From Diprion similis (Eukaryota; Arthropoda; Insecta; Hymenoptera; Diprionidae), in NCBI RefSeq assembly GCF_021155765.1, contig NC_060112.1, positions 2,914,001 to 2,978,000 on the forward strand: DNA of 64,000 bases. Direction: 5' to 3'. Numbering within the stretch: position 1 is the stretch's first letter; the number at the start of each line of letters is the position of its first letter. Made by a program: the position numbers and the translations under genes. The notes under the pieces are model-generated. The model searched no databases, was not told where the DNA came from, and saw only the letters and a list, made by a program, of their open reading frames with translations. This document shows positions 19,998 to 63,999 of the stretch, piece after piece.

Positions 19998-21914
19998 TCA
20001 CCATACAATTTTCCATGAACTTCTAGATTTGCATCTCTCACCTCCGCACAATTGATTGAACGTCATGTTCGATGGAAAACCTATTATTTCTCTATCTTCT
20101 TGGATTCGGAAAGTGAATGTCGATTCATGCGTTCCTATGAAGTACCTGGACGTGATTAAGAACATTGATTAGTTCTGTGGTCAGTAAAAATTAATAGAAA
20201 CTTACCTCGCCTTTGAACAAATTATTTGATCTATAATAGCAACACCCCCATCTTTATACAACTTTTTAACAGTATCTGATGGTGTGTATCTTGTTACTGT
20301 ATACATATGCAGCAGTGATTTAAGCTCATTGTATTCTAGAGAAAGAAAAATATCGTATAACATATGATATTTTCACAAATAGTTGTAGCGATTTTAAGAA
20401 GATATTCATACCGTTATTCTCTGCATCTGTGGCTACAAAAATCGACTGTAAATTTAGTTCCTCCATTTTGCTACTCAACTGAGATGCTGCATTCTTTATT
20501 GTCGGTACAGAACCTGCGCGGCCTGTTAAAAAATCGCGTCTTCTAAGGTGCACGCATAGATATGGTCCTCCCAACGCATTTCTTTTGCTCTATGAAAAAT
20601 AAAAAACATATTCGTTTTTATCACTTTACAGTGTTTCACGGCAAAAGAAATGAAATTAAATTGACGGATTATTTTTTTCTGAATCTATTACTTTCTCCTT
20701 GGTCCAGTCCGCAGGCAGATCTGTCTTGTCCTTAGTGTCATTTGAATTTAAATATCTCTGCCTGAAATCATCAGCGATCTCATAGAGAGCGGAATTATAT
20801 CTCATGCTGCGTCTTGCTGCCCAGTATTCTTTTGTACCGTAAGAATCATGAAGGGGAATCTCCATGTGGTCGAACATCACAGAGCTGGAACATGAATCAA
20901 TTTAGTTATTATTTCCTTTCATTTTATCAGACTTCCGATAAAATTTCTACCTGTAAATATCAGGATAGAGATTTTCCTCAAGACCAGACATAGTGCCATG
21001 ATAAACTAGGCACTTTACTTCGTTAGCAGTGATATTTGAGTAGCCCCAAAACTTTGAGCCGTAGTTGCCAGAGCTAGAGGCTTGGTACTTTCTCAACGCA
21101 TCAGGGGTACAGTTGATGAGCTGATTTTTATCATCAAAGTTACCAGTCTCAAACATTTTTTCATCATTTTGTAAAATGTAGACACGATCTATCGCCAAGG
21201 TTTTGCTGTCCGGTGAGTATTCTGTAAATAAAGAGGGTGTTGTTACAGTTCTTTGTTTTGCCAATCTTAGCTTGCCAAGTAGATACCTTTGATGAATTCG
21301 TGCATCTCTATCACTGGTACATATTTCTGCAAACTCTTCAAGTCGAAGAACGTACTCCATGGTATCTGCTTCTGGGGACCAATGTCCGTGCTTCTCCAAT
21401 GGTACAAATTCCCTGCATAATCATTGTTACAAAGTGTTAGAAATCTCTTTATTTTGGGGTCGATTCATGCATTAAATTTTTTTCGATTATGATAGTAATA
21501 GGAGCGGTTACCCCACGGTGGCAGGACAAGGTGCCACTGATAGCGCTTTTTACTTTTCTGTGACAAGTTTCTAACAAAGATCGATGTTCGGAGGTAGACG
21601 TCACGCCTGAGGTTGAATCCTTCGGGGGGATTCACATCGTACAATATGTACCTGAAAATAATTCATTCGTTTCGTTGAGTGAGTGCAACGGTGGGTTGAT
21701 GTCAATGAAACTTGAAGGTCCTCATGCGTTAAAATCGGAAAAGCTAGGTTAGGTTAAACCTCTTGCTCGTGAATTCGGTGTGCCTAGAGCAGTTTTCATC
21801 ATCTAAGTCATATCCATTTGTCTTTGCACAAAATTCTGGCGCTTGCGCAACGGTCTCGTGAGTCAAGTCTGTTGAAATTAACAAAAGAAAGTACAAAATA
21901 TCCCAGGCGACCAT
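19998..21914 (-). CDS. POFUT2: GDP-fucose protein O-fucosyltransferase 2
   Basis: Endoplasmic-reticulum GT68 glycosyltransferase that adds O-fucose to folded thrombospondin type 1 repeats. Exons on the minus strand: 21914-21760, 21651-21512, 21412-21287, 21221-20951, 20884-20692, 20589-20412, 20335-20206 and 20145-19998; 446 residues, all phases consistent. Visible: a signal peptide ([14 protein letters not shown]); the GDP-fucose-binding [20 protein letters not shown] with the catalytic Glu in [51 protein letters not shown]; the second motif [28 protein letters not shown]; and the third motif [19 protein letters not shown]. The third exon is read in a different frame from the longest open frame there and is confirmed by its fit to the family ([20 protein letters not shown]). 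The start Met at 21914 gives a good signal peptide. Its upstream region leads into the satellite array. Confidence 0.95.
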
Positions 21915-22197
21915 TGCAAATTCTGAAACAATAAAACATGAGGCGGAGGGGAAGGGGATGAATAAATTATCGAGATTATACGCAAGATGCGCATGGGGTA
22001 CGCCGTGCGGCCGACGGTGGCGCTGCAAACTGAATATGCCTAACCAACATAATCCACTCAGGCAAAACTTCATCCGTTGACTGGGAATGTTTGACCGTCT
22101 CTGGATTAATGCCAGCATCTGTAACGTGAGGTTGAAATTGTGTATAAGCTCGATGTTATTTATCAAAAAAACTCAACATCGTTGATTGACCCGGGGA
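21915..22197. other. POFUT2 upstream region
   Basis: Short non-repetitive stretch between the POFUT2 start codon and the first decayed satellite monomer. It has a GC-rich part near 21995-22025 that may belong to the promoter. No gene was seen. Confidence 0.5.
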
Positions 22198-23579
22198 TCT
22201 TTCGTTTTTTGGCTGTAAATCTTGATCCGTTGCTCGCAGCGTATTCGGAGTACGCGCAGTCGGTTCCGCTTGCAGGCTTACGTCGATGTGGTGAGTGAAA
22301 AATTTGGTCACGGCATTTTTCAAATCGACGCAATTTCCGCGAATATCCAAGGGGTATAGCCTTGCTTTTTTTGAAGCAGATAATCTTTCGTCTCAGAATC
22401 CATTCGTGTCACCTAGTTTCTACTGATTACAACCACAGAAACTCAGAAAACACAACAAAAAAAGCGAAGGACCTATAGCAGAGAAATTACGACGCAAAGA
22501 CCAGCAGCTTGAAAATTGAGAGAATACATCTTTCGTTTTTTGGCTGTAACTCTTGATGTGTTGCTCGCAGCGCATTCGGACTGCGATCAATCGATTTCTC
22601 TCGCAAAATTACGTCGGAATAGAGCATGGAAGAATTCATTGCGGCACTTTTCAGAATCGTCGAAATTTTCGCTGAAAAACCAAAGGGGTTAGCCTTACTT
22701 TTTTGGTCATTTTTGGAGCTGAGTATTTTTTCGTCTCGAAATCGATTTGGATGACCCTTTCTAGATGAATTGGACGCCCAGGAACTCAGAAAACACATCA
22801 ATAAAAGCGTAGGACCAACAGCAGAGAAATTACGACGCAAAGACCAGCAGCAAAAAAATTGAGAAAATACGTCTCTCGTTTTTTGGCTGTTACTCTTGAT
22901 GTGTTGCTCGCAGCGCATTCGAACTGCGATCAATTGATTTCTCTCGCAAAATTACGTCGAAATAGAGCATGGAAGAATTCATTGCAGCACTTTTCAGAAT
23001 CGTCGAAATTCTCGCAAAAAAACCAAAGGGGTTAGCCTTACTTTTTTGGTCATTTTTGAAGCCGAGAATTTTTCGTCTCGGAATCTATTCGTATGACCCT
23101 GCCTAGATTCATTGGACGCTCAGGAACTCAGAAAACACAACAAAAAAAGCGAAGGACCTATAGCAGAGAAATTACGACGCAAAGACCAGCAGCATAAAAA
23201 TTGAGAGAATACATCTTTCGTTTTTTGGCTGTAACTCTTAATGTGTTGCTCGCAGCGCATTCGGACTGCGATCAATCGATTTCTCTCGCAAAATAACGTC
23301 GGAATAGTGCATGGAAGAATTCATTGCAGCACTTTTCAGAATCGTCGAAATTTTCGCGAAAAAACCAAAGGGGTTAGCCTTACTTTTTTGGTCATTTTCG
23401 GAGCCGAGAATTTTTCGTCTCGGAATCGATTTGCATGACCCTTTTTAGATTAATTGGACGCCCAGGAACTCAGAAAACACAACAAAAAAAGGGAAGGACC
23501 AACAGCAGAGAAATTACGACGCAAAGAACAGCAGCATAAAAATTGAAAAAATACGTCTCTCGTTTTTTGGCTGTAACTC

Positions 23580-26500
23580 TTGATCTGTTGCCCGCAGCGC
23601 ATTCGGACTGCGATCAATCGATTTCTCTCGCAAAATTACGTCGAAATAAAGCGTGGAAGAATTCATTGCAGCACTTTTCAGAATCGTCGAAATTTTCGCA
23701 GAAAATCCAAAGGGGTTAGCCTTACTTTTTTGGTCATTTTTGGAGCTGAGAATTTTTCGTCTCGAAATCGATTGTTGTGACCCTTTCTAGATTAATTGGA
23801 CGCCCAGGAACTCAGAAAACACATCAAAAAAAGCGTAGGACCAACAGCAGAGAAATTACGACGCAAAGAACAGCAGCATAAAAATTGAGAAAATACGTCT
23901 CTCGTTTTTTGGCTGTAACTCTTGATCTGTTGCCCGCAGCGCATTCGGACTGCGATCAATCGATTTCTCTCGCAAAATTACGTCGGAATAGAGCGTGGAA
24001 AAATTCATTGCAGCACTTTTCAGAATCGTCGAAATTTTCGCAAAAAAACCAAAGGGGTTAGCCTTACTTTTTTGGTCATTTTTGGAGCCGAGAATTTTTC
24101 GTCTCGGAATCTATTCGTATGACCCTGCCTAGATTCATTGAACGCTCAGGAACTCAGAAAACACAACAAAAAAAGCGAAGGACCTATAGCAGAGAAATGA
24201 CGACGCAAAGACCAGCAGCATAAAAATTGAGAGAATACATCTTTCGTTTTTTGGCTGTAACTCTTGATGTGTTGCTCGCAGCGCATTCAGACTGCGATCA
24301 ATCGATTTCTTTCGCAAAATAACGTCGGAATAGAGCATGGAAGAATTCATTGCAGCACTTTTCAGAATCGTCAAAATTTTCGCCAAAAACCAAAGGGGTT
24401 AGCCTTACTTTTTTGGTCATTTTTGGAGCCGAGAATTTTTCGTCTCGGAATCGATTGTTGTGACCCTTTCTAGATTAATTGGAGGCCCAGGAACTCAGAA
24501 AACACATCAAAAAAAGCGTAGGACCAACAGCAGAGAAATTACGACGCAAAAAAAAGCAGCATAAAAATTGAGAAAATACGTCTCTCGTTTTTTGGCTGTA
24601 ACTCTTGATCTGTTGCCCGCAGCGCATTCGGACTGCGATCAATCGATTTCTCTCGCAAAATTACGTCGGAATAGAGCGTGGAAAAATTCATTGCAGCACT
24701 TTTCAGAATCGTCGAAATTTTCGCGGAAAATCCAAAGGGGTTAGCCTTACTTTTTTGGTCATTTTTGGGGCCGAGAATTTTTCGTCTCGGAATCGATTTT
24801 TGTGTCCCTTTCTAGATTAATTGGACGCCCAGGAACTCAGAAAACACACCAAAAAAAGCGTAGGACAAACAGCAGAGAAATTACGACGCAAAGACCAGCA
24901 GCAAAAAAATTGAGAGAATACATCTTTCGTTTTTTGGCTGTAACTCTTGATGTGTTGCTCGCAGCGCATTCGGACTGCGATCAATCGATTTCTCTCGCAA
25001 AATTACGTCGGAATAGAGCGTGGAAGAATTCATTGCAGCACTTTTCAGAATCGTCGAAATTCTCGCAAAAAAACCAAAGGGGTTAGCCTTACTTTTTTGG
25101 TCATTTTTGGAGCCGAGAATTTTTCGTCTCAGAATCTATTCGTATGACCCTGCCTAGATTCGTTGGACGCTCAGGAACTCAGAAAACACAACAAAAAAAG
25201 CGAGGGACCTATAGCAGAGAAATTACGACGCAAAGACCAGCAGCATAAAAATTGAGAGAATACATCCTTCGTTTTTTGGCTGTAACTCTTGATGTGTTGC
25301 CCGCAGCGCATTCGGACTGCGATCAATCGATTTCTCTCGCAAAATTACGTCGGAATAGAGCGTGAAAGAATTCATTGCAGCACTTTTCAGAATTTTCGAA
25401 ATTTTCGCAGGAAATCCAAAGGGGTTAGCCTTACTTTTTTGGTCATTTTTGGAGCTGAGAATTTTTCGTCTCGGAATCGATTGTTGTGACCCTTTCTAGA
25501 TTAATTGGACGCCCAGGAACTCAGAAAACACATCAAAAAAAGCGTAGGACCAACAGCAGAGAAATTACGACGCAAAGAACAGCAGCATAAAAATTGAGAA
25601 AATACGTCTCTCGTTTTTTGGCTGTAACTCTTGATCTGTTGCCCGCAGCGCATTCGGACTGCGATCAATCGATTTCTCTCGCAAAATTACGTCGGAATAG
25701 AGCGTGGAAAAATTCATTGCAGCACTTTTCAGAATCGTCGAAATTTTCGCAAACAACCAAAGGGGTTAGCCTTACTTTTTTGGTCATTTTTGGAGCCGAG
25801 AATTTTTCGTCTCGGAATCTATTCGTATGACCCTGCCTAGATTCATTGAACGCTCAGGAACTCAGAAAACACAAAAAAAAAAGCGAAGGACCTATAGCAG
25901 AGAAATGACGACGCAAAGACCAGCAGCATAAAAATTGAGAGAATACATCTTTCGTTTTTTGGCTGTAACTCTTGATGTGTTGCTCGCAGCGCATTCGGAC
26001 TGCGATCAATCGATTTCTTTCGCAAAATAACGTCGGAATAGAGCATGGAAGAATTCATTGCAGCACTTTTCAGAATCGTCAAAATTTTCGCCAAAAACCA
26101 AAGGGGTTAGCCTTACTTTTTTGGTCATTTTTGGAGCCGAGAATTTTTCGTCTCGGAATCGATTGTTGTGACCCTCTCTAGATTAATTGGAGGCCCAGGA
26201 ACTCAGAAAACACATCAAAAAAAGCGTAGGACCAACAGCAGAGAAATTACGACGCAAAGAAAAGCAGCATAAAAATTGAGAAAATACGTCTCTCGTTTTT
26301 TGGCTGTAACTCTTGATCTGTTGCCCGCAGCGCATTCGGACTGCGATCAATCGATTTCTCTCGCAAAATTACGTCGGAATAGAGCGTGGAAAAATTCATT
26401 GCAGCACTTTTCAGAATCGTCGAAATTTTCGCAGAAAATCCAAAGGGGTTAGCCTTACTTTTTTGGTCATTTTTGGGGCAGAGAATTTTTCGTCTCGGAA

Positions 26501-26987
26501 TCGATTTTTGTGACCCTTTCTAGATTAATTGGACGCCCAGGAACTCAGAAAACACACCAAAAAAAGCGTAGGACAAACAGCAGAGAAATTACGACGCAAA
26601 GACCAGCAGCAAAAAAATTGAGAGAATACATCTTTCGTTTTTTGGCTGTAACTCTTGATGTGTTGCTCGCAGCGCATTCGGACTGCGATCAATCGATTTC
26701 TTTCGCAAAATTACGTCGGAATAGAGCGTGGAAGAATTCATTGCAGCACTTTTCAGAATCGTCAAAATTTTCGCAAAAGGGTTAGCCTTACTTTTTGGGT
26801 CATTTTTGGAGCCGAGAATTTTTCGTCTCAGAATCTATTCGTATGACCCTGCCTAGATTCATTGGTCGCTCAGGAACTCAGAAAACACAACAAAAAAAGC
26901 GAAGGACCTATAGCAGAGAAATTACGACGCAAAGACCAGCAGCATGAAAATTGAGAAAATACATCTTTCGTTTTTTGGCTGTAACTC
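23580..26987. repeat. Five-monomer higher-order repeat, two copies
   Basis: The monomers beginning at 23580, 23922, 24264, 24605 and 24947 reappear in the same order and with the same private variants at 25289, 25631, 25972, 26313 and 26655, an offset of about 1,709 bp. Shared private changes include GACGACGCAAAG after GAGAAAT in the monomers that begin near 24180 and 25900, GAGGCCCAGG instead of GACGCCCAGG, and ACACACCAAAAAAAG. The type order is a-b-a-a-b in both copies. Confidence 0.85.
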
Positions 26988-29037
26988 TTGTTGTGTTGCC
27001 CGCAGCGCATTCGGACTGCGATCAATCGATTTCTCTCGCAAAATTACGTCGGAATAGAGCGTGGAAGAATTCATTGCAGCACTTTTCAGAATCGTCGAAA
27101 TTTTCGCAGAAAATCCAAAGGGGTTAGCCTTACTTTTTGGGTCATTTTTGGAGCCGAGAATTTTTCGTCTCAGAATCTATTCGTATGACCCTGCCTAGAT
27201 TCATTGGACGCTCAGGAACTCAGAAAACACAACAAAAAAAGCGAAGGACCTATAGCAGAGAAATTACGACGCAAAGAACAGCAGCATAAAAATTGAAAAA
27301 ATACGTCTCTCGTTTTTTGGCTGTAACTCTTGATCTGTTGCCCGCAGCGCATTCGGACTGCGATCAATCGTTTTCTCTCGCAAAATTACGTCGGAATAGA
27401 GCGTGGAAGAATTCATTGCAGCACTTTTCAGAATCGTCGAAATTTTCGCAGAAAATCCAAAGGGGTTAGCCTTACTTTTTTGGTCAGTTTTGGAGCCGAG
27501 AATTTTTCGTCTCGGAATCGATTTTTGTGACCCTTTCTAGATTAATTGGACGCCCAGGAACTCAGAAAACACATCAAAAAAAGCGTAGGACCAACAGCAG
27601 AGAAATTACGACGCGAAGAACAGCAGCATAAAAGTTGAGAAAATACGTCTCTCGTTTTTTGGCTGTAACTCTTGATCTGTTGCCCGCAGCGCATTCGGAC
27701 TGCGATCAATCGATTTCTCTCGCGAAATTACGTCGGAATAAAGCGTGGAAAAATTCATTGCAGCACTTTTCAGAATCGTCAAAAGTTTCGCAAAAAACCA
27801 AAGGGGTTAGCCTTACTTTTTTGGTCATTTTTGGAGCCGAGAATTTTTCGTCTCGGAATCGATTTTTGTGACCCTTTCTAGATTAATTGGACGCCCAGGA
27901 ACTCAGAAAACACATCAAAAGAAGCGTAGGACCAACAGCAGAGAAATTACGACGCAAAGACCAGCAGCAAAAAAATTGAGAAAATACATCTCTCGTTTTT
28001 TGGCTGTAACTCTTGATGTGTTGCTCGCAGCGCATTCGGACTGCGATCAATCGATTTCTTTTGCAAAATTACGTCGGAATAGAGCCGGAAGAATTCATTG
28101 CAGCACTTTTCAGAATCGTCAAAATTTTCGCAAAAAATCCAAAGGGGTTAGCCTTACTTTTTTGGTCATTTTTGGAGCTGAGAATTTTTCGTCTCAGAAT
28201 CGGGTTGTAAGACCCTTTCTGGATTAATTGGACGCCCAGGAACTCAGAAAACACATCAAAAAAAGCGTAGGACCAACAGCAGAGAAATTACGACGCAAAG
28301 AACAGCAGCATAAAAATTGAGAAAATACGTCTCTCGTTTTTTGGCTGTAACTCTTGATCTGTTGCCCGCAGCGCATTCGGACTGCGATCAATCGATTTCT
28401 CTCGCAAAATCACGTCGGAATAGAGCGTGGAAGAATTCATTGCAGCACTTTTCAGAATCGTCGAAATTTTCGCAGAAAATCCAAAGGGGTTAGCCTTACT
28501 TTTTGGGTCATTTTTGGAGCCGAGAATTTTTCGTCTCAGAATCTATTCGTATGACCCTGCCTAGATTCATTGGACGCTCAGGAACTCAGAAAACACAACA
28601 AAAAAAGCGAAGGACCTATAGCAGAGAAATTACGACGCAAAGAACAGCAGCATAAAAATTGAGAAAATACGTCTCTCGTTTTTTGGCTGTAACTCTTGAT
28701 CTGTTGCCCGCAGCGCATTCGGACTGCGATCAATCGATTTCTCTCGCAAAATCACGTCGGAATAGAGCGTGGAAGAATTCATTGCAGCACTTTTCAGAAT
28801 CGTCGAAATTTTCGCAGAAAATCCAAAGGGGTTAGCCTTACTTTTTGGGTCATTTTTGGAGCCGAGAATTTTTCGTCTCAGAATCTATTCGTATGACCCT
28901 GCCTAGATTCATTGGACGCTCAGGAACTCAGAAAACACAACAAAAAAAGCGAAGGACCTATAGCAGAGAAATTACGACGCAAAGAACAGCAGCATAAAAA
29001 TTGAAAAAATACGTCTCTCGTTTTTTGGCTGTAACTC

Positions 29038-32000
29038 TTGATCTGTTGCCCGCAGCGCATTCGGACTGCGATCAATCGTTTTCTCTCGCAAAATTACGTC
29101 GGAATAGAGCGTGGAAGAATTCATTGCAGCACTTTTCAGAATCGTCGAAATTTTCGCAGAAAATCCAAAGGGGTTAGCCTTACTTTTTTGGTCAGTTTTG
29201 GAGCCGAGAATTTTTCGTCTCGGAATCGATTTTTGTGACCCTTTCTAGATTAATTGGACGCCCAGGAACTCAGAAAACACATCAAAAAAAGCGTAGGACC
29301 AACAGCAGAGAAATTACGACGCGAAGAACAGCAGCATAAAAGTTGAGAAAATACGTCTCTCGTTTTTTGGCTGTAACTCTTGATCTGTTGCCCGCAGCGC
29401 ATTCGGACTGCGATCAATCGATTTCTCTCGCAAAATTACGTCGGAATAGAGCGTGGAAGAATTCATTGCAGCACTTTTCAGAATCGTCAAAATTTTCGCA
29501 GAAAATCCGAAGGGGTTAGCCTTACTTTCTTGGTCATTTTTGGAGCCGAGAATTTTTCGTCTCGGAATCGATTTTTGTGACCCTTTCTAGATTAATTGGA
29601 CGCCCAGGAACTCAGAAAACACATCAAAAAAAGCGTAGGACCAACAGCAGAGAAATTACGACGCAAAGAACAGCAGCATAAAAATTGAGAAAATACGTCT
29701 CTCGTTTTTTGGCTGTAACTCTTGATCTGTTGCCCGCAGCGCATTCGGACTGCGATCAATCGATTTCTCTCGCAAAATTACGTCGGAATAGAGCGTGGAA
29801 GAATTCATTGCAGCACTTTTCAGAATCGTCGAAATTTTCGCAGAAAATCCAAAGGGGTTAGCCTTACTTTTTGGGTCATTTTTGGAGCCGAGAATTTTTC
29901 GTCTCAGAATCTATTCGTATGACCCTGCCTAGATTCATTGGACGCTCAGGAACTCAGAAAACACAACAAAAAAAGCGAAGGACCTATAGCAGAGAAATTA
30001 CGACGCAAAGAACAGCAGCATAAAAATTGAAAAAATACGTCTCTCGTTTTTTGGCTGTAACTCTTGATCTGTTGCCCGCAGCGCATTCGGACTGCGATCA
30101 ATCGTTTTCTCTCGCAAAATTACGTCGGAATAGAGCGTGGAAGAATTCATTGCAGCACTTTTCAGAATCGTCGAAATTTTCGCAGAAAATCCAAAGGGGT
30201 TAGCCTTACTTTTTTGGTCAGTTTTGGAGCCGAGAATTTTTCGTCTCGGAATCGATTTTTGTGACCCTTTCTAGATTAATTGGACGCCCAGGAACTCAGA
30301 AAACACATCAAAAAAAGCGTAGGACCAACAGCAGAGAAATTACGACGCGAAGAACAGCAGCATAAAAGTTGAGAAAATACGTCTCTCGTTTTTTGGCTGT
30401 AACTCTTGATCTGTTGCCCGCAGCGCATTCGGACTGCGATCAATCGATTTCTCTCGCAAAATTACGTCGGAATAGAGCGTGGAAGAATTCATTGCAGCAC
30501 TTTTCAGAATCGTCAAAATTTTCGCAGAAAATCCGAAGGGGTTAGCCTTACTTTCTTGGTCATTTTTGGAGCCGAGAATTTTTCGTCTCGGAATCGATTT
30601 TTGTGACCCTTTCTAGATTAATTGGACGCCCAGGAACTCAGAAAACACATCAAAAAAAGCGTAGGACCAACAGCAGAGAAATTACGACGCAAAGAACAGC
30701 AGCATAAAAATTGAGAAAATACGTCTCTCGTTTTTTGGCTGTAACTCTTGATCTGTTGCCCGCAGCGCATTCGGACTGCGATCAATCGATTTCTCTCGCA
30801 AAATTACGTCGGAATAGAGCGTGGAAGAATTCATTGCAGCACTTTTCAGAATCGTCGAAATTTTCGCAGAAAATCCAAAGGGGTTAGCCTTACTTTTTGG
30901 GTCATTTTTGGAGCCGAGAATTTTTCGTCTCAGAATCTATTCGTATGACCCTGCCTAGATTCATTGGACGCTCAGGAACTCAGAAAACACAACAAAAAAA
31001 GCGAAGGACCTATAGCAGAGAAATTACGACGCAAAGAACAGCAGCATAAAAATTGAAAAAATACGTCTCTCGTTTTTTGGCTGTAACTCTTGATCTGTTG
31101 CCCGCAGCGCATTCGGACTGCGATCAATCGTTTTCTCTCGCAAAATTACGTCGGAATAGAGCGTGGAAGAATTCATTGCAGCACTTCTCAGAATCGTCGA
31201 AATTTTCGCAGAAAATCCAAAGGGGTTAGCCTTACTTTTTTGGTCAGTTTTGGAGCCGAGAATTTTTCGTCTCGGAATCGATTTTTGTGACCCTTTCTAG
31301 ATTAATTGGACGCCCAGGAACTCAGAAAACACATCAAAAAAAGCGTAGGACCAACAGCAGAGAAATTACGACGCGAAGAACAGCAGCATAAAAGTTGAGA
31401 AAATACGTCTCTCGTTTTTTGGCTGTAACTCTTGATCTGTTGCCCGCAGCGCATTCGGACTGCGATCAATCGATTTCTCTCGCAAAATTACGTCGGAATA
31501 GAGCGTGGAAGAATTCATTGCAGCACTTTTCAGAATCGTCGAAATTTTCGCAGAAAATCCAAAGGGGTTAGCCTTACTTTTTGGGTCATTTTTGGAGCCG
31601 AGAATTTTTCGTCTCAGAATCTATTCGTATGACCCTGCCTAGATTCATTGGACGCTCAGGAACTCAGAAAACACAACAAAAAAAGCGAAGGACCTATAGC
31701 AGAGAAATTACGACGCAAAGAACAGCAGCATAAAAATTGAAAAAATACGTCTCTCGTTTTTTGGCTGTAACTCTTGATCTGTTGCCCGCAGCGCATTCGG
31801 ACTGCGATCAATCGTTTTCTCTCGCAAAATTACGTCGGAATAGAGCGTGGAAGAATTCATTGCAGCACTTTTCAGAATCGTCGAAATTTTCGCAGAAAAT
31901 CCAAAGGGGTTAGCCTTACTTTTTTGGTCAGTTTTGGAGCCGAGAATTTTTCGTCTCGGAATCGATTTTTGTGACCCTTTCTAGATTAATTGGACGCCCA

Positions 32001-32115
32001 GGAACTCAGAAAACACATCAAAAAAAGCGTAGGACCAACAGCAGAGAAATTACGACGCGAAGAACAGCAGCATAAAAGTTGAGAAAATACGTCTCTCGTT
32101 TTTTGGCTGTAACTC
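29038..32115. repeat. Three-monomer higher-order repeat (1,026 bp)
   Basis: Monomer subtypes at 29038, 29380 and 29722 recur almost unchanged at 30064, 30406 and 30748, exactly 1,026 bp on. A third round starts at 31090, skips the middle subtype (31432 is the third type), and restarts at 31774. Markers are AATCGTTTTCTCTC plus TTGGTCAGTTTTGG in the first subtype, AATCCGAAGGGG plus TTTCTTGGTC in the second, and TTTTTGGGTC plus the b-type tail in the third. This is the youngest, most homogeneous part of the array. Confidence 0.9.
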
Positions 32116-35100
32116 TTGATCTGTTGCCCGCAGCGCATTCGGACTGCGATCAATCGATTTCTCTCGCGAAATTACGTCGGAATAAAGCGTGGAAAAATTC
32201 ATTGCAGCACTTTTCAGAATCGTCGAAATTTTCGCAGAAAATCCAAAGGGGTTAGCCTTACTTTTTGGGTCATTTTTGGAGCCGAGAATTTTTCGTTTCA
32301 GAATCTATTCGTATGACCCTGCCTAGATTCATTGGACGCTCAGGAACTCAGAAAACACAACAAAAAAAGCGAAGGACCTATAGCAGAGAAATTACGACGC
32401 AAAGACCAGCAGCATAAAAATTGAGAGAATACATCCTTCGTTTTTTGGCTGTAACTCTTGATGTGTTGCTCGCAGCGCATTCGGACTGCGATCAATCGAT
32501 TTCTCTCGCGAAATTACGTCGGAATAGAGCGTGAAAGAATTCATTGCAGCACTTTTCAGAATCGTCGAAATTTTCGCAAAAAATCCACAGGGGTTAGCCT
32601 TACTTTTTTGGTCATTTTTGGGGCCGAGAATTTTTCGTCTCGGAATCGATTTTTGTGACCCTTTCTAGAATAATTGGACGCCCAGGAACTCAGAAAACAC
32701 ACCAAAAAAAGCGTAGGACCAACAGCAGAGAAATTACGACGCAAAGACCAGCAGCAAAAAAATTGAGAGAATACATCTTTCGTTTTTTCGCTGTAACTCT
32801 TGATCTGTTGCTCGCAGCGCATTCGGACTGCGATCAATCGATTTCTTTCGCAAAATAACGTCGGAATAGAGCATGGAAGAATTCATTGCAGCACTTTTCA
32901 GAATCGTCAAAAGTTTCGCAAAAAACCAAAGGGGTTAGCCTTACTTTTTTGGTCATTTTTGGAGCCGAGAATTTTTCGTCTCGGAATCGATTTTTGTGAC
33001 CCTTTCTAGATTAATTGGACGCCCAGGAACTCAGAAAACACATCAAAAAAAGCGTAGGACCAACAGCAGAGAAATTACGACGCAAAGAACAGCAGCATAA
33101 AAATTGAGAAAATACGTCTCTCGTTTTTTGGCTGTAACTCTTGATCTGTTGCCCGCAGCGCATTCGGACTGCGATCAATCGATTTCTCTCGCAAAATTAC
33201 GTCGGAATAGAGCGTGGAAGAATTCATTGCAGCACTTTTCAGAATCGTCAAAATTTTCGCAGAAAATCCGAAGGGGTTAGCCTTACTTTCTTGGTCATTT
33301 TTGGAGCCGAGAATTTTTCGTCTCGGAATCGATTTTTGTGACCCTTTCTAGATTAATTGGACGCCCAGGAACTCAGAAAACACATCAAAAAAAGCGTAGG
33401 ACCAACAGCAGAGAAATTACGACGCAAAGAACAGCAGCATCAAAATTGAGAAAATACGTCTCTCGTTTTTTGGCTGTAACTCTTGATCTGTTGCCCGCAG
33501 CGCATTCGGACTGCGATCAATCGATTTCTCTCGCAAAATTACGTCGGAATAGAGCGTGGAAGAATTTATTGCAGCACTTTTCAGAATCGTCAAAATTTTC
33601 GCAGAAAATCCAAAGGGGTTAGCCTTACTTTCTTGGTCATTTTTGGAGCCGAGAATTTTTCGTCTCGGAATCGATTTTTGTGACCCTTTCTAGATTAATT
33701 GGACGCCCAGGAACTCATAAAACACATCAAAAAAGCGTAGGACCAACAGCAGAGAAATTACGACGCAAAGAACAGCAGCATAAAAATTGAGACAATACGT
33801 CTCTCGTTTTTTGGCTGTAACTCTTGATCTGTTGCCCGCAGCGCATTCGGACTGCGATCAATCGATTTCTCTCGCAAAATTACGTCGGAATAGAGCGTGG
33901 AAGAATTCATTGCAGCACTTTTCAGAATCGTCAAAATTTTCGCAGAATATCCAAAGGGGTTAGCCTTACTTTTTTGGTCATTTTTGGAGCCGAGAATTTT
34001 TCGTCTCGGAATCGATTTGAGTGACCCTTTCTAGATGAATTGGACGCCCAGGAACTCAGAAAACACATCAAAAAAAGCGTAGGACCAACAGCAGAGAAAT
34101 TACGACGCAAAGAACAGCAGCATAAAAATTGAGAAAATACGTCTCTCGTTTTTTGGCTGTAACTCTTGATCTGTTGCCCGCAGCGCATTCGGACTGCGAT
34201 CAATCGATTTCTCTCGCAAAATCACGTCGGAATAGAGCGTGGAAGAATTCATTGCAGCACTTTTCAGAATCGTCGAAATTTACGCAGAAAATCCAAAGGG
34301 GTTAGCCTTACTTTTTGGGTCATTTTTGGAGCCGAGAATTTTTCGTCTCAGAATCTATTCGTATGACCCTGCCTAGATTCATTGGACGCTCAGGAACTCA
34401 GAAAACACAACAAAAAAAGCGAAGGACCTATAGCAGAGAAATTACGACGCAAAGACCAGCAGCATAAAAATTGAGAGAATACATCTTTCGTTTTTTGGCT
34501 GTAACTCTAGATCTGTTGCCCGCAGCGCATTCGGACTGCGATCAATCGATTTCTCTCGCAAAATTACGTCGGAATAGAGCGTGGAAGAATTCATTGCAGC
34601 ACTTTTCAGAATCGTCAAAATTTTCGCAGAAAATCCAAAGGGGTTAGCCTTACTTTCTTGGTCATTTTTGGAGCCGAGAATTTTTCGTCTCGGAATCGAT
34701 TTTTGTGACCCTTTCTAGATTAATTGGACGCCCAGGAACTCAGAAAACACATCAAAAAAAGCGTAGGACCAACAGCAGAGAAATTACGACGCAAAGAACA
34801 GCAGCATGAAAATTGAGAAAATACGTCTCTCGTTTTTTGGCTGTAACTCTTGATCTGTTGCCCGCAGCGCATTCGGACTGCGATCAATCGATTTCTCTCG
34901 CAAAATTACGTCGGAATAGAGCGTGGAAGAATTCATTGCAGCACTTTTCAGAATCGTCAAAATTTTCGCAGAAAATCCGAAGGGGTTAGCCTTACTTTCT
35001 TGGTCATTTTCGGAGCCGAGAATTTTTCGTCTCGGAATCGATTTTTGTGACCCTTTCTAGATTAATTGGACGCCCAGGAACTCAGAAAACACATCAAAAA

Positions 35101-36990
35101 AAGCGTAGGACCAACAGCAGAGAAATTACGACGCAAAGAACAGCAGCATAAAAATTGAGAAAATACGTCTCTCGTTTTTTGGCTGTAACTCTTGATCTGT
35201 TGCCCGCAGCGCATTCGGACTGCGATCAATCGTTTTCTCTCGCAAAATTACGTCGGAATAGAGCGTGGAAGAATTCATTGCAGCACTTCTCAGAATCGTC
35301 GAAATTTACGCAGAAATCCCAAAGGGGTTAGCCTCACTTTTTGGGTCATTTTTGGAGCCGAGAATTTTTCGTCTCAGAATCTATTCGTATGACCCTGCCT
35401 AGATTCATTGGACGCTCAGGAACTCAGAAAACACATCAAAAAAAGCGTAGGACCAACAGCAGAGAAATTACGACGCAAAGAACAGCAGCATAAAAATTGA
35501 GAAAATACGTCTCTCGTTTTTTGGCTGTAACTCTTGATCTGTTGCCCGCAGCGCATTCGGACTGCGATCAATCGATTTCTCTCGCAAAATTACGTCGGGA
35601 TAGAGCGTGGAAGAATTCATTGCAGCACTTTCCAGAATCGTCAAAATTTTCGCAGGAAATCCGAAGGGGTTAGCCTTACTTTCTTGGTCATTTTTGGAGC
35701 CCAGAATTTTTCGTCTCGGAATCGATTTTTGTGACCCTTTCTAGATTAATTGGACGCCCAGGAACTCAGAAAACACATCAAAAAAAGCGTAGGACCAACA
35801 GCAGAGAAATTACGACGCAAAGAACAGCAGCATAAAAATTGAGAAAATACGTCTCTCGTTTTTTGGCTGTAACTCTTGATCTGTTGCCCGCAGCGCATTC
35901 GGACTGCGATCAATCGATTTCTCTCGCAAAATTACGTCGGAATAGAGCGTGGAAGAATTCATTGCAGCACTTTCCAGAATCGTCAAAATTTTCGCAGAAA
36001 ATCCGAAGGGGTTAGCCTTACTTTCTTGGTCATTTTTGGAGCCCAGAATTTTTCGTCTCGGAATCGATTTTTGTGACCCTTTCTAGATTAATTGGACGCC
36101 CAGGAACTCAGAAAACACATCAAAAAAAGCGTAGGACCAACAGCAGAGAAATTACGACGCAAAGAACAGCAGCATAAAAATTGAGAAAATACGTCTCTCG
36201 TTTTTTGGCTGTAACTTTTGATCCGTTGCTCGCAGCGTATCCGGACTGCGATCAATCGAGTTTTCTCGAGAAAATACGACTGAATAGTGCATGATAGAAT
36301 CGTCAGCAGCATTTTCCAAAATCGTTGAAATTTTTGGCAAAAATCCAAAGGGGTTAGCCTTACCTTGTTTTCAGAGCCAAAAATCTTTTGTCTCAGTATC
36401 TATCAGTTTGAGATTTTTCTAACACATTACAACCCCGGGAACTCAGAAAACGCAGCAAAATTAGCGTCGGACCAACAGCTGAGCAATGATGGAGGAAAGA
36501 CCAGCAGCAAAGATTTTCCGAAAAGGATGCTTCGTTTTCCAGCTGTAACTCTTGATTCGCTCCTCGCGGCCTATTTGGAGTGCGCACAATCGGTTCTTTT
36601 CGCAAAATCACGACTATATAGTGTTTTCAAGAATTGATCCCATCACTTTCCAATCGTTCAACATTTGCGCCGAAAATCCAAAGGGTTTAGCCGTACTTTT
36701 TTTCGGAGCAAAAAATCTTCTGTCCCAAAATCCATTCGTAAGACCTCCTTCCAACTAATCACAAACCCAGGAACTCGGAAAACGCAGCAAAAGGAGTTTT
36801 AGATCAGCAGCAGAGAAAAGATGGAGGAAAGCCCAGGAGCAGATATATCACGAAACGCTTTTCGTTTCTAGAGTCTAACACTTGATCTGTTCCTCGCAGC
36901 CTCTTTGGAGTCCGCGCAATCGGATATGCTCATAAAACTTCGTACATACACATAGTGTGTGAAAGAATTGATTTTCACGTTTTTTTAATC

Positions 36991-38871
36991 TTTGATTTAT
37001 GCCATGAGCAACACAGAAAGACATGAAAATAGCAATGGACTGACCTTGGCGGAAATATGACGAAAGTGCATCGCATGTCGTTTATTGACTTATTTCAATC
37101 CGTGTTACTTCTAACAATACAATATTATACACATCGTATTCGGCGGAGGTGCATTGCACCTTCGCGTATGGCGAAACCTAATATGTACTCACAAACTTCA
37201 TTCATTACCATCTCTTATATATACTACTCTTCATACGCTGCTCAAGGTAACATTTATCGTACACCTCCATTCCAAGATAGTAGTCAGTTTTGTATTTGTC
37301 AAGTAATGTTCCACGGTTTTTTGTATTAGTTTCACGTACTTCGTCAGTATCGAGCAACTTGCCCACGTATTACACACTGACACCCGAACACTTGTTCTAG
37401 GATTAGGGCGTAATAAACATACTGAAACTGAAGCGAAACGAAACTTCCTAGCTATGAATTCGTTATTTCCCTTTTCCAAGTGTTCAATAACCGGCTGAAA
37501 ATTTCATGTTCTTTGGCCGTTTCTATCAATCTGTAGTCTGTAGCGAGTCGAGATTGCGCAAACGATTCCTCTTGCAAAATTACGTACACATAGTGCATCA
37601 GGGGATCGATTCCAGCAGCATCCAAATTCGTCCAAATTTTCACCACAAATCCGAAGGTGTCAACATCAATCTGTTGAGCAAAAATTTTTTTAGACTCCAA
37701 TCCTCTACGCAGGGAACGGACAGTCAGAAAAAGAATCAGTATCAATCGGAAAAAATGGTTTAAATTGATATCAATTATTCATTTTTAACGTTAATGAAAA
37801 CACTCTTGATGAGTGTGAAATTGTTACTCGTAAGAAATCGGTCTTGAGGTTTACTGATTGTTGTAATGGATATTTTTAGAGTAATTGGAACTTGGAAAAT
37901 AAATAATGGAGTCAGTATTAATAAAGAGTGAGTTATAAATTGGCTTGTTATAATATGGAAGAAAAGTATACTTGTGAGAAGTGAAATAAATATACGTACT
38001 TGCAGAAAACGCTGCGTTCAACGTACTTCCATCGAAGAGAAAAGTGTTCTAGAATTTTTCGAATATCCTAAAAACATGAGACATTGAATTTTCGTAATTT
38101 ATTATTTTAAAACTGCCCAACATATCAAAAATTTCTTCATTGAAACGTTCTTGAAAAGATGGAAACTAAAAATGAAGTGGTTCAAAATTTTTTCAAAATA
38201 TTTGCATCTGAAAGTTGACATCGTAAAAAACTTTTAAAAAATTACTTGAGCATCTTGGAGATGCTACTGTCACCTATAAAAGGTCTGATACATTCAGGTG
38301 AATATAAATGATACACATCCGTGTATTCGATCGACATTTATTATTTCTGCTGCGGGATTTTCTCAACTTTTCAATTTCACAATGGCGACGATGTGTTACC
38401 AACGTTTAGCACGCTATGGTTGTTGGTTATGAAGAACTTCTTTTACCGACGTGGTTAGTTCCTTGGTCATACTCTTTGCCTTGGTCGATAATACTTAAAG
38501 CTGCTAATACCTCCAGACCCGCCCAGACCATAGAACTCCAGACCCGCTAAAATGTTACAAAAAATAACTTTAGGGTTGATTCTCAGTCAACAGATGAGGC
38601 GAATTCCTCTCTACTCATAAACATGCAAGATAATGTAGTTTCCAATTTTACCGACCAGAATAATTTGCACCATTCTATTATCGTTCATTCTCAGTTGGTT
38701 GGTAAAGAGGCGGCTTGCCAAGAGGCGAAAAAAATATTTCTATCTTCGAAAAACAGAAGCGCATGCTGTATGTACAGTACATACATAAATATCGTGCACG
38801 CGAAGATCGGTCGCTTGGTAAATCATACGAGTAATAAAAGAAAATAAATTAAAACTAAGAACTAAAATAAA
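36991..38871. other. CARNMT1 upstream region
   Basis: Between the satellite end and the CARNMT1 start codon. It holds the orphan monomer (37490-37740) and otherwise AT-rich sequence. The frames at 37057-37329 and 38623-38847 have no recognisable homology and no sign of coding. Confidence 0.5.
37490..37740. repeat. Orphan, highly diverged satellite monomer
   Basis: Separated from the array by about 500 bp. TTGCAAAATTACGT, CATAGTGCATCAGGGGATCGATTC, CCAAATTTTCACC and AAATCCGAAGG line up in order with the monomer landmarks, followed by a GAGCAAAAATTTTTT equivalent of the hairpin region. It is a decayed relic of a formerly larger array, or an early dispersed copy. Confidence 0.6.
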
Positions 38872-41475
38872 ATGGATGCGTCGCCGAATTCTTATTCCCG
38901 AAAAATGCACAATTCGTACGAAGACGAGGAGGAGAGAATGCACTTTCTCCGCATAGTATCGGCCTTTAAATACTACAGGTAAATTATTCTTGAACTGTTA
39001 AGAGTTGGACCGCTTTGCTCTCGCTGGGGATTGAATACCGAGCGGCGACATAACCTATCACTGCCTTTTTCCCCACTTACTCCGGAACGTATTTTTAGTC
39101 CGATGAGCCATTCTGACTCTCGGTGTTTTCGCAACCAGCAGGAAACTGCCGGCATGCGATCACCGGAGTTTGATTTCGGAATACTTTGCGACTGTCAATA
39201 CTTCGCACGGTTCTTGTCAACAACCCTTTTCTCAACAGCATGAGAATTTTCGTTCTCTTTACAGACCCCATTCTCTACAACGGGTGAAGAAAACGGAAAC
39301 CTACTTCATGTCTCTGCCTGGTCATCATCAGAAGCTACTCTCCAAGTACAGAGAACAACTCCAAGAGATAAAAAGATGCATTGAGAACAATGACCACATT
39401 ATTAAACTCATCATCAAAGATGTCACTCATATTTTTGAAAACGTCAGTCCGACGACTGCTCAAACCGAGAGTGTAAGAAACGTTTTTCATCGTTTGGTGC
39501 ATCACCATACCTTCGACTTTTATCTTTGCATCTTAGATCAATTTTTACAATTAACCCAATCCGAATGTCGTGCGTCGCTGGAGACCGGAGCCGTTTTTCT
39601 ATTGTGCCATTTCTCAGAATTCAAGTAAGGGAAAAATACCAATTCGCGCTGTAAAAAAATTTTGGTCAGCTGGAACCCTACGTGTGGTCATGGTGTGCCC
39701 TTGAAGTAGAAGTATTCAAGAGTTTTCAGAAATTTTATCAAATTTTTTCATTGCAAAATATGTGTTCTAACATGCTTAGTGTCTTTAGCGACCCACGATC
39801 TCCTGAACAGGGACCGACAAAGCAACACCCTGATCGGGTTAAGGATTCCCCAATATTGACATTTGCGTCGGCGACAGTTCTTCGTTTTGCAACGTATATC
39901 CAATATGTTGTACATAATTCATATTCTGTGTTTCTTTATTTCACGAAGTTCACAAGAGCAATGACAAATGATTGCCATTTAGAAAAAGAAGGCTCACAAA
40001 TACATAGTATATACCTTGAGTCTTAATTCTCTGTAGTAGATCTGGAAAATATGTTCCGTATATATTATATATACTCTTTGGAACTTCAATTAATTATTGC
40101 TCGCCACAGAAGTGGTTAACTTGAAAAAATTGCATTGAACCTCGTTGAATCTCAACGATTAATTTTCACAGAAATATATTCTATTGTACGAAACATAGGT
40201 AGGTCTGATTCTAGACGCCAAATCCTCGACCAGTCATGGCTGACCAGGAAAAAGTACAAGCGACAATAAAGCAGCTGGTTAGAGACTGGAGCGAAGAGGG
40301 TGCCCAAGAAAGACTGTCCTGTTATCAACCTATCATAGATGAAATACTCCAACAGTTTCCCCCTGATTTTTGGTAAAGGAAATTGATTCGCTTAATGGAA
40401 GGTAGTCTTGGTCAAAGGTTCTTTGTCCTAGACCAAAACATTATAATTTACAAATTGAATCTAACTTACTGGATGTATTTTCAGTGTACCGTCAGAAGTG
40501 CAAGTCCTAGTACCTGGCGCAGGGCTCGGAAGACTTGCATACGAAATAGCCAGACGAGGATACACGTGTCAAGGAAATGAATTTTCTCTCTTCATGCTGT
40601 TCGCTTCACATTTTGTCCTGAACAAGTGAGTAGGAATAAGTGTGGATTATTTAATATGATAGTGGATTCATATGCTTATTTAATAATCGTAACCTGTTGG
40701 GATAATAAATTTTTATCATTGTTTTGTAGATGCAGGGGAACAAACACGTACCAGGTTCATCCCTGGGTTCATCAATACATGAACAACCTCAAGCCCGAGC
40801 ATCAAACGCACGCAGTTTCATTTCCCGACGTAAATCCTAGCGATCTTCCCGAAAATGCACAGTTTTCCATGGCTGCGGGTGATTTTTTGGAGGTAGATAA
40901 TCTGTCTTGATTTATTACCTGTATAATCGTTTAACAGCCACTTTAGTTCCTCTAATTCTAATTGATTCGTTCCAGGTGTACACAGAGGATAATCACTGGG
41001 ACTGTGTGGCGACTTGCTTTTTCATTGACTGTGCGAACAACGTAGTACAATTCATCGAAACAATTTATAAAATTCTGAAGCCTGGCGGAGTTTGGATAAA
41101 CTTGGGGCCGCTATTGTACCACTTCAGCGATATACCGATGGAAGATTCGATAGAACCGAGCTACGAGGCTGTCCGCGAGGTTATAGTGGGCCTTGGATTT
41201 CGGATGGAGGTCGAGATCCTTTACATATCGTCTCTTATAAAATTCATTTTCCCAGACTGGGTTCTGTTGAGTAATGTTTAATTCACAATTTGTTTTTACA
41301 GAGAGAGGATACCCACGTAAAAACCCGTTATGCGCAGAACACGAACAGCATGCTGCAGTACGAGTACAACAGCGTGTATTTCGTCTGCAGAAAACCTAAG
41401 CCAAATTCGTCATCGGATTTAAATAATCATATTAATGGTTCGGAATCTAACGGTTCGCAGGAGCAGGAAAATTAA
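38872..41475 (+). CDS. CARNMT1: Carnosine N-methyltransferase (CARNMT1/UPF0586 family)
   Basis: SAM-dependent enzyme; the family methylates carnosine to anserine and, in later work, histidine of C3H zinc-finger proteins. Exons 38872-38978, 39265-39472, 40215-40372, 40485-40625, 40730-40892, 40976-41209 and 41302-41475 give 394 residues, close to the vertebrate length, with all phases consistent. Visible: [44 protein letters not shown], the SAM-binding [89 protein letters not shown], and a C-terminal [11 protein letters not shown]. Two donors were chosen by phase and family alignment: GTAAGA after GAGAGT at 39472, and GTCGAG after ATGGAG at 41209. The short Asn/Ser-rich tail after CRKP is not conserved. 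An AATAAA signal lies near 41737. Confidence 0.93.
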
Positions 41476-44482: not shown

Positions 44483-44657
44483 TTCTACTTTTGAACTTGC
44501 TGGTGTTATCACTTTAAACCATGCGTACCATAACCTATAATAAACGCGATAAAGAATTGGTCTACGTTATCGACTGAGCGAACTCTATGCCTACAGCGAA
44601 TGGAGAAAAAAGATACGACAGAAGATTACAATGGATGTTCTATTTATTTATAACGAA

Positions 44658-44927
44658 GCATTTTTCGATGCGCGGACAATATATCCATGCATGTAAGAAT
44701 ACGTAGTATAACATAAAATGGTAAAGATTCAATATTAGTCTTTTATAATGTCCGGCGACGTGATTTCGCAAGGTGAAAAAAATTTTCGTATAGCATTTTT
44801 CGATGCGCGGACAATATATCCATGCATGTAAGAATACGTAGTATAACGTAAAATGGTAAAGATTTAATATTAGTCTTTTATAATGTCCGGCGATGTGATT
44901 TCGCAAGGTGAAAAAAATTTTCGTACT
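44658..44927. repeat. Tandem duplication, 2 copies of 135 bp
   Basis: The unit beginning GCATTTTTCGATGCGCGGAC at 44658 repeats from 44793 with only a few differences (ACATAAAA/ACGTAAAA, GATTCAAT/GATTTAAT, GGCGACG/GGCGATG). It lies between the KTI12 start codon and the chitinase-like 3' end. The apparent protein repeat on the minus strand is just its translation. Confidence 0.85.
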
Positions 44928-60600: not shown

Positions 60601-62573
60601 GCGCAACTCGCTTCCCGCGAAAAATTTCGAACTTCGAACGTTGCTGAAAAACAAATTTCCTGAGTTCTAAACTCGTCTACAATGCAACATCGCGGTGAGA
60701 ATATCGCCTACACGATTCTGGGGGAGAAACAAAGTCGGGAGCGAGTCTTGTTTGCTAATTGATGAGGACGGATACCGTAATTATAGTAGGTAGCGGGGAC
60801 CGGGCGAGAGATAAGAAATTGCGCAGTCAAGATGCTCGCTGCACACGCATCGTGCAGTCATCGTTTCCTTCCATATTATCAAAGCCGCGATTCCGCACCT
60901 GCGACGTGAATTTTCCGCCCTCTTTTCCCCGCGCCCTGTAGACTTCAACTTGCGTATGTATTTACGGATGAATCGGTACGGTCACGTTGCAGCTGCATAA
61001 TCAGCTCCTCGGAGAAGATAAATCGAAATATATTTACACAGTATACAAGCAGGGTGAGTGAGTGATATCGGAGCTATGAAGACAAGTTGATAAGATCTGT
61101 GGAATGCCTGTAGTATATCTTATATTTATACTGGGAATTTATATAACGGTTATTTTCATTCCATTTTTCGAAATTATTTGAAAATACCTTGCTAATCCAG
61201 CATTTCATCCGCTTTTTCTGTGGCCCTTTGTTTCCTCCTTATATATCCGGAAAGGAAGGAAACGCGATCAATGTTGAACAGCAGTCTTTGGATCTTTCGT
61301 TCCTCCAGAAGGCGGAGGAAGTTTTGCTTGGTTTTACTTTTTATCAGTGTCTAGTCATTTTTACGAATACGCATTAATGTGCCACTAGTTTCGGTCGTTG
61401 CTCTTCTGATCGTCGTCGTCGTCGTCGCGTTTGCAAAGATAAGGGAAAGCACTTGTCACACTGTATTTCTGCCGCTCGTATTTCGCCTGAATCTCAAGGC
61501 GAATGGAAGATTTGAAGACACTTTAGACGGCTGAAAAACGTGAAACTTAGCGCCAAAAGTGATTTCAGTAAACTGACATGAAATTTCTCTGCTTCTTCGA
61601 AGCTTATTGCCGAAATTCAGAGCCGAAGGTCTCGCCGAGTAGATTAGATAATAACTAGTTCGTATAATCACTCATTTCTTCAGAGACGCGATAAGGGGGA
61701 ATAAAAGCGGAAGAAAGACGCTCTTGGCCAAAAAATACGTGCCCGTAAGCTTCGGTGGCGCTCGTTACTCAGCCGTTAGTAAACAAAGCCGATCGTAAAA
61801 CTCCGGGGGTCTGTGACTACACACGGCGGCGATCCGTCGGGAGCAGATACTCGGCTAACAATGAGCGTTTGCACAGGCTGTGCGGCTGCCACGCGATGAC
61901 TGAGCACGTGTGGGACTTGGGACAATTGATATACATATATGTAGTCCAAAGTCTGTCCTCCGCCGCGCGTTGTTACATCGCCACCCGGTAACAGAGGGCA
62001 AATTTGTTTAAGTTGATTGCTGCGCGGTTCGCTGCACAGACAATGAGAAAATTTGAATATACACGTCTATTATTACCCGTATCTTAATTGTTATTATTTT
62101 TCGTTCTTTCCATTTATCTTATAACAAAATTGAGTATACAATCGTTCGTGCTGTTATCTCTCGCACTTTGATGAACAAGTTTTTCGTCGAACACTCAAGG
62201 TATACCGCAACGAATCGTGCGTATCAAGTCGTGTTTTACCGTTATTCGTAATGTAATATTTTCTCATTTTATTGACTTCGGTTGTTGTACACCTTCGGAT
62301 GCACCGACACTACTTATGTTTTCATGAATAATAAAACGGTTACGCCCCTATTTTTTCTCTCTTCCTCTTTAACTCGAAAGAATTAAAATTGATATATTAA
62401 TTACCTAAATTAAAGTATTACACAAAGTTGGATCCGTACTAGTCAGAGTCGCTATTGACCTTCTCCTGTTCGTTGGATCCGTACTAGTCAGAGTCGCTAT
62501 CGGCCTACTCCTGTTGATTGAATCCGTACTAGTTGGAGTTGATATCGGCCTACTCCTGTTCATGGGATCCGTA
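57633..62573. other. Long intergenic region without recognisable genes
   Basis: About 5 kb between the SV2-like start and the RNF113 stop. It contains a TGTATATACACAGG-type palindromic microsatellite (about 58568-58632), a short GTC run near 61411, and the 45-bp repeats next to RNF113. Frames such as 60160-60519 (-) and 61755-61991 (+) have no homology I know and no splice context. Upstream non-coding exons and promoters of the SV2-like gene may lie here. Confidence 0.5.
58568..58632. repeat. Palindromic TA/TG microsatellite
   Basis: TGTATATACACAGGTGTAT occurs at both ends of the tract, with a (TA/TG) run between them. It is self-complementary in parts. It is simple-sequence DNA with no further meaning visible. 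Confidence 0.7.

Positions 62574-63999
<1,426 letters not shown>

Follow-up and report, generated by a model that had tools for sequence, protein, structure and literature searches.

A low-copy satellite array of 342-bp monomers with decayed edge copies between the divergent genes POFUT2 and CARNMT1 of Diprion similis

In the window analysed here, a stretch of 64,000 nucleotides, monomers of 342 bp are arrayed head to tail over 22197-36994, between the divergent genes POFUT2 and CARNMT1. The array is a satellite, consisting of non-coding head-to-tail tandem copies with a homogenised centre and divergent edges. In the explanation that we favour, and consider likely, it is a small low-copy array in gene-dense DNA, long resident at its site, the centre of which has been homogenised by unequal exchange, and which is tolerated between two genes and has no sequence-specific function. 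Such exchange, by unequal crossing-over and/or gene conversion, would duplicate and delete whole-monomer blocks and thereby keep the centre alike, while at the edges exchange would be rare, leaving old monomers to decay by mutation.

The geometry of the array is observed directly. Tandem Repeats Finder gives a period of 342 with 40.8 copies and 93% matches (score 24175) at 22436-36363, and a query with a single monomer gives 45 plus-strand matches with E<1e-5, all within 22197-37680. A profile built from 40 full copies recovers the same 45. On the minus strand, the single monomer gives four weak matches (E 0.089-0.82) and the profile two (E 0.27 and 0.2), all of them inside the array. The 45 plus-strand copies comprise 40 full central monomers (22436-36098), four divergent edge copies (L1 on the left, and R1, R2 and R3 on the right) and a detached relic, R4; up to 36994, with R4 outside, 44 whole or partial monomers are counted. 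The spacing of a landmark in the monomer (40 intervals from 41 matches) is 341 or 342 throughout, except for intervals of 333, 335, 332 and 683, the last being the length of two copies. The original prediction had described a 342-bp head-to-tail array, and its period and position are confirmed by Tandem Repeats Finder and by the monomer and profile searches; the limits of 22198-36990 and the figure of about 43 monomers that it gave were essentially right. The base composition of the array is 58% A+T. With the edge copies added to the profile, a search of both flanks (1-22196 and 36975-64000) recovers R4 alone (E 4.4e-42); the runner-up has E 0.23, and there are zero matches in the flanks when they are reversed.

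On average, any two of the 40 central copies (plus strand) are 94% identical, and 109 of 343 alignment columns are variable. Whole-monomer duplications can be seen directly within the array. Among the top 40 exact repeats listed, the eight longest (433-1407 bp) are displaced by whole numbers of monomers (2, 3, 5, 5, 8, 8, 11 and 13), to within 2 bases, and the longest of them occupies the plus-strand block 28754-31186, where 1407 bp at 28754-30160 are identical to 29780-31186 (offset 1026, or 3 monomers). Monomers at lag 5 are more alike than expected by chance (p 0.015, corrected for 20 lags), while similarity at lags 3 and 8 is lost after correction over 20 lags (p 0.11 and 0.094), and adjacent monomers are no more alike than others (p 0.91). 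The multi-monomer offsets of the exact repeats, together with the similarity at lag 5, point to block duplication by unequal exchange, which we infer to be the agent of homogenisation. Alternative agents may be gene conversion or the recombination of the array with a circular copy; a central block brought in by the latter would also have in-register junctions.

Identity to the central consensus drops outward on both sides, and this gradient is likewise a direct observation. All edge copies are on the plus strand. In pairwise alignments, identity on the right is 87.5% for R1 (36099-36411, chimeric), 74% for R2 (36435-36746), 70% for R3 (partial; 36766-36974, extending to 36994 in the single-monomer search) and 69% for R4 (37503-37680, monomer positions 97-276), and on the left it is 76% for L1 (22197-22416, partial, monomer positions 95-325). 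The joint alignment gives 83, 70, 69 and 67% for R1 to R4, and 76% for L1. The chimeric nature of R1 is evident along its length: 119 of its first 120 alignment columns are identical to the central consensus, later blocks have 70-90% identity, and the switch from central to divergent sequence falls within one monomer, in register. Between R3 and R4, a possible degenerate monomer piece (monomer position ~312 through 77) lies at 36980-37076 on the plus strand. It is weak, scoring 20.0 against the consensus (maximum of 200 shuffles, 19.5), and is unsupported with R2 and R3 as reference, where its score of 18.5 is below the shuffle maximum of 21.5. An insertion at 37077-37502 was considered and finds no support: the ends of the segment are not linked to any inverted repeat, and no direct repeat could be assigned to its flanks.

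The inner edge copies of the two sides have many identical non-consensus states. L1 and R2 have 24 such states in 220 sites (5.3 expected, p 1e-9), L1 and R3 have 12 in 114 sites (3.4 expected), and R2 and R3 have 24 in 204 sites (6.0 expected); the divergent part of R1 and R2 have 23 in common (5.7 expected). Among the 24 states common to L1 and R2, 14 are seen in no central copy; the remaining 10 are also present there, in 1 to 18 of the 40 copies. When only sites invariant in the centre are counted, the excess persists for L1 and R2 (10 versus 2.4 expected, p 1.7e-4) and for R2 and R3 (15 versus 3.8, p 7e-6), and is not significant for L1 and R3 (5 versus 2.2, p 0.07) or for any pair with R4 (p 0.46-0.92). 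With all sites counted, the comparisons of R4 with L1, R2, R3 and the divergent part of R1 have p values of 0.14, 0.12, 0.038 and 0.0014, respectively, uncorrected in a set of ten comparisons. L1 and R2 do not form a tight group, since they have states in common, yet each has many private changes, and L1 is overall closer to the central consensus (167/220) than to R2 (155/220).

From the non-consensus states that inner edge copies of the two sides have in common, we conclude that these copies do not descend from the central consensus. In our reading, both array edges keep an older monomer form, and the centre would have been homogenised later and not quite completely. Such states, common to both edges and directly observed, are predicted by unequal exchange. 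Weaker homogenisation at array ends is described for satellites in the part of PMC10048060 cited here. Most likely, the array evolved where it is now located and has long been resident there.

The neighbourhood consists of ordinary genes. The 5' part of POFUT2 lies at 20205-21914 on the minus strand, with the start codon read at 21914. Its exon at 21510-21650(-) matches chains of POFUT2 in the PDB (best E 5.8e-13) and also Pfam O-FucT (E 3.1e-5; 24.2 bits, below the curated cut-off of 31.5). Pieces down to 20205 are assigned by eye, as is the ORF at 20947-21420(-), which has no match in Pfam or the PDB and is given to POFUT2 on that basis only, and the join of exon 1 and exon 2 is a manual reading of the sequence. 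CARNMT1 lies at 39308-41281 on the plus strand, from the first in-frame Met to the end of the last matched ORF. The ORF at 39107-39628(+) matches PDB 5yf0 (E 2e-9) and no Pfam family, and the ORF at 40901-41281(+) matches Pfam CARME (E 2.7e-32). The divergent flanks proposed from the first inspection are thus borne out by the Pfam and PDB matches and by head-to-head start codons, read at 21914 and 39308. The array begins 283 bp from the start codon of POFUT2; on the other side, the first Met of CARNMT1 lies 2.3 kb beyond the end of the array and 1.6 kb beyond R4. Gene content and introns suggest an arthropod, probably an insect. Elsewhere in the window, Bestrophin, KH, KTI12, GH18, sugar transporter, Trp dioxygenase and papain-type domains are found. 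The array therefore sits among single-copy genes, their single-copy status being assumed.

The monomer has no coding signal, as is observed directly: the consensus has 2 to 6 stops in each of its six frames, and N/S ratios, compared as plain values, range from 0.69 to 1.10 across frames, none standing out. A coding repeat protein, considered on account of 90-aa minus-strand stretches that recur in many monomers, is not supported, given the stops in all six consensus frames and the lack of any frame that stands out. Neither consensus strand folds better than shuffled sequences (z -0.10 and +1.05), and an imperfect inverted repeat within the monomer is borderline, its score of 34 being reached by 23 of 500 shuffles. 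Across the window there is no Rfam match at the gathering threshold, and ARAGORN, run in its bacterial setting, reports no tRNA.

Signals of a centromeric kind were sought in the consensus alone, both strands of which lack the CENP-B box motif in its strict or relaxed form. Alpha-satellite dimers are built of two 171-bp halves; at a shift of 171 the consensus has a weak self-match of 0.310, which exceeds the mean (0.255) by about 2 sd, and the score of one half against the other (19) falls inside 60 shuffles (mean 16.6, maximum 23). There is no significant 10-bp dinucleotide periodicity (p 0.46). No block is conserved between centre and edges: 57 of the 172 columns compared are invariant, the best 17-column window has 10 invariant columns (p 0.59), and the longest invariant run is 4 (p 0.78). 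The longest invariant run among the central copies alone is 12 (p 0.69). The array has an observed/expected CpG ratio of 1.41, compared with 1.23 for the left and 1.19 for the right flank; CpG is undepleted, which suggests that there has been no heavy methylation decay. The hints of a boundary, silencing or centromere role raised at the outset accordingly find no support in the sequence: the consensus has no CENP-B box and no fold better than shuffles, and neither a conserved motif block nor a coding signal was found. The array would be tolerated in the upstream space of two genes, most likely without sequence-specific function. Its neutrality is probable, given the absence of such signals, and these negative tests leave room for a chromatin effect of the array.

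Other explanations were weighed against these results. The array could be a euchromatic outpost of a major centromeric or pericentromeric satellite of the host genome, like TCAST1 of Tribolium, which we regard as rather unlikely. Its unit of 342 bp is about the length of two nucleosomes, and one- and two-nucleosome lengths occur in many centromeric satellites, units of 300-340 bp being favoured (in the part of PMC10218199 cited); the array is also internally homogenised. On the other side stand the lack of a CENP-B box on both strands of the consensus and the decayed relics at both sides, which argue for long local residence over a fresh seed. This explanation concerns origin and is compatible with the one that we favour. 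An assembly artefact, or a badly wrong array length, is the least credible of the alternatives. Exact repeats of up to 1407 bp could let an assembler gain or lose blocks, which makes the copy number uncertain, but the copies differ mutually (the 109 variable columns), and the grading of the array into decayed copies at both sides is unexpected from a false join.

A regulatory role is improbable as well. The array might influence the two divergent genes, either as a boundary in chromatin or by nucleating heterochromatin, and so tune their promoters or keep them apart, as would fit its start 283 bp from the POFUT2 start codon and the behaviour of TCAST1, which is described in PMC4537270 (cited in part) as suppressing associated genes after heat stress with enrichment of H3K9me2/3, the effect being stronger with more copies. 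Against this, no motif block is conserved from centre to edge, the longest central invariant run is no longer than chance allows, and the consensus folds no better than shuffles on either strand. Less probable still is a more elaborate picture, in which the satellite is confined to this locus, has kept its old edges where they are, and regulates or insulates the divergent pair, with copy number determining how strongly POFUT2 or CARNMT1 is expressed.

The long-resident, homogenised low-copy array favoured here resembles satellites described in other insects. The original prediction found its placement beside genes unusual; genes do flank the array, but the surprise was overstated, since gene-near satellites in euchromatin are documented in Drosophila (1.688) and Tribolium. 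For Drosophila 1.688, the part of PMC7642928 cited describes complex satellites that lie close to genes in euchromatin. Like the array, 1.688 (359-bp) has a complex monomer of similar length (the ~360 bp subfamily) and forms euchromatic arrays, many of them near genes (PMC7642928). Unlike it, the 1.688 family also has, as far as the cited part describes, long heterochromatic arrays, and its euchromatic arrays are short and X-enriched, whereas the present locus is one array of 44 copies; the two are likened by description, not by sequence. In Tribolium, euchromatic complex satellites include the dispersed TCAST1 elements (PMC4537270, in part), compared with which there are about 44 copies here and any silencing effect is putative. 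The cited part of PMC10218199 describes 46 low-copy Tribolium satellites, whose units favour lengths of 140-180 bp or 300-340 bp and whose longest arrays hold 5 to 84 of them. The array falls in the 300-340 bp class and in the 5-84 range of these low-copy T. castaneum satellites, some of which are scattered in euchromatin (PMC10218199). It differs from them in base composition, lying just outside their 59.2-80.1% A+T, and in that theirs are described as mainly near transposable elements; the likeness is again one of description, not of sequence. The parts of PMC7919458 and PMC13192020 cited are also consistent with a known kind of satellite. With 44 copies, the array is towards the long side compared with reports from euchromatin, which are mostly of single repeats or short arrays.

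Searches for relatives of the monomer gave little. Two monomer patterns run on genome contigs, and a second pattern run on viral contigs, had zero matches in these collections, which are described as containing no insect genomes. Six monomer words had no match in paper texts, and no paper joining 342 bp, satellite DNA and Hymenoptera was found in the papers searched. One exact 19-mer of the monomer occurs in viral contig L001, perhaps an RNA-phage contig, and 37 bases around it align (E 5e-5 for that contig alone); we take this match as chance.

The array is a real low-copy satellite among genes, probably neutral, and a further example of a documented type. It leaves current views unchanged; interest would rise if the monomer were private to this locus and the array length affected either gene. 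With its graded, decayed edges beside unique genes, it neatly illustrates how a satellite array is renewed from its centre, and it could serve to gauge exchange rates in long-read population data.

The decayed right edge of the satellite array is split by a stretch of ∼426 bp (37077-37502) in which no monomer sequence is recognised. The break falls between positions ∼77 and ∼97 of the 342-bp monomer, and the stretch, to which no terminal repeats were assigned, is possibly an insertion into this edge. Within the monomer consensus of the central array (22436-36098), GAATTC forms the centre of an imperfect dyad (consensus positions 159-247), the score of which was equalled or exceeded by 23 of 500 shuffles.

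Outside the array, a 135-bp unit is tandemly duplicated at 44657-44925 (97% matches), and the KTI12 open reading frames lie ∼90 bp downstream of this duplication. Further along the window, at 62428-62606, a 45-bp unit is repeated in four copies (85% matches).
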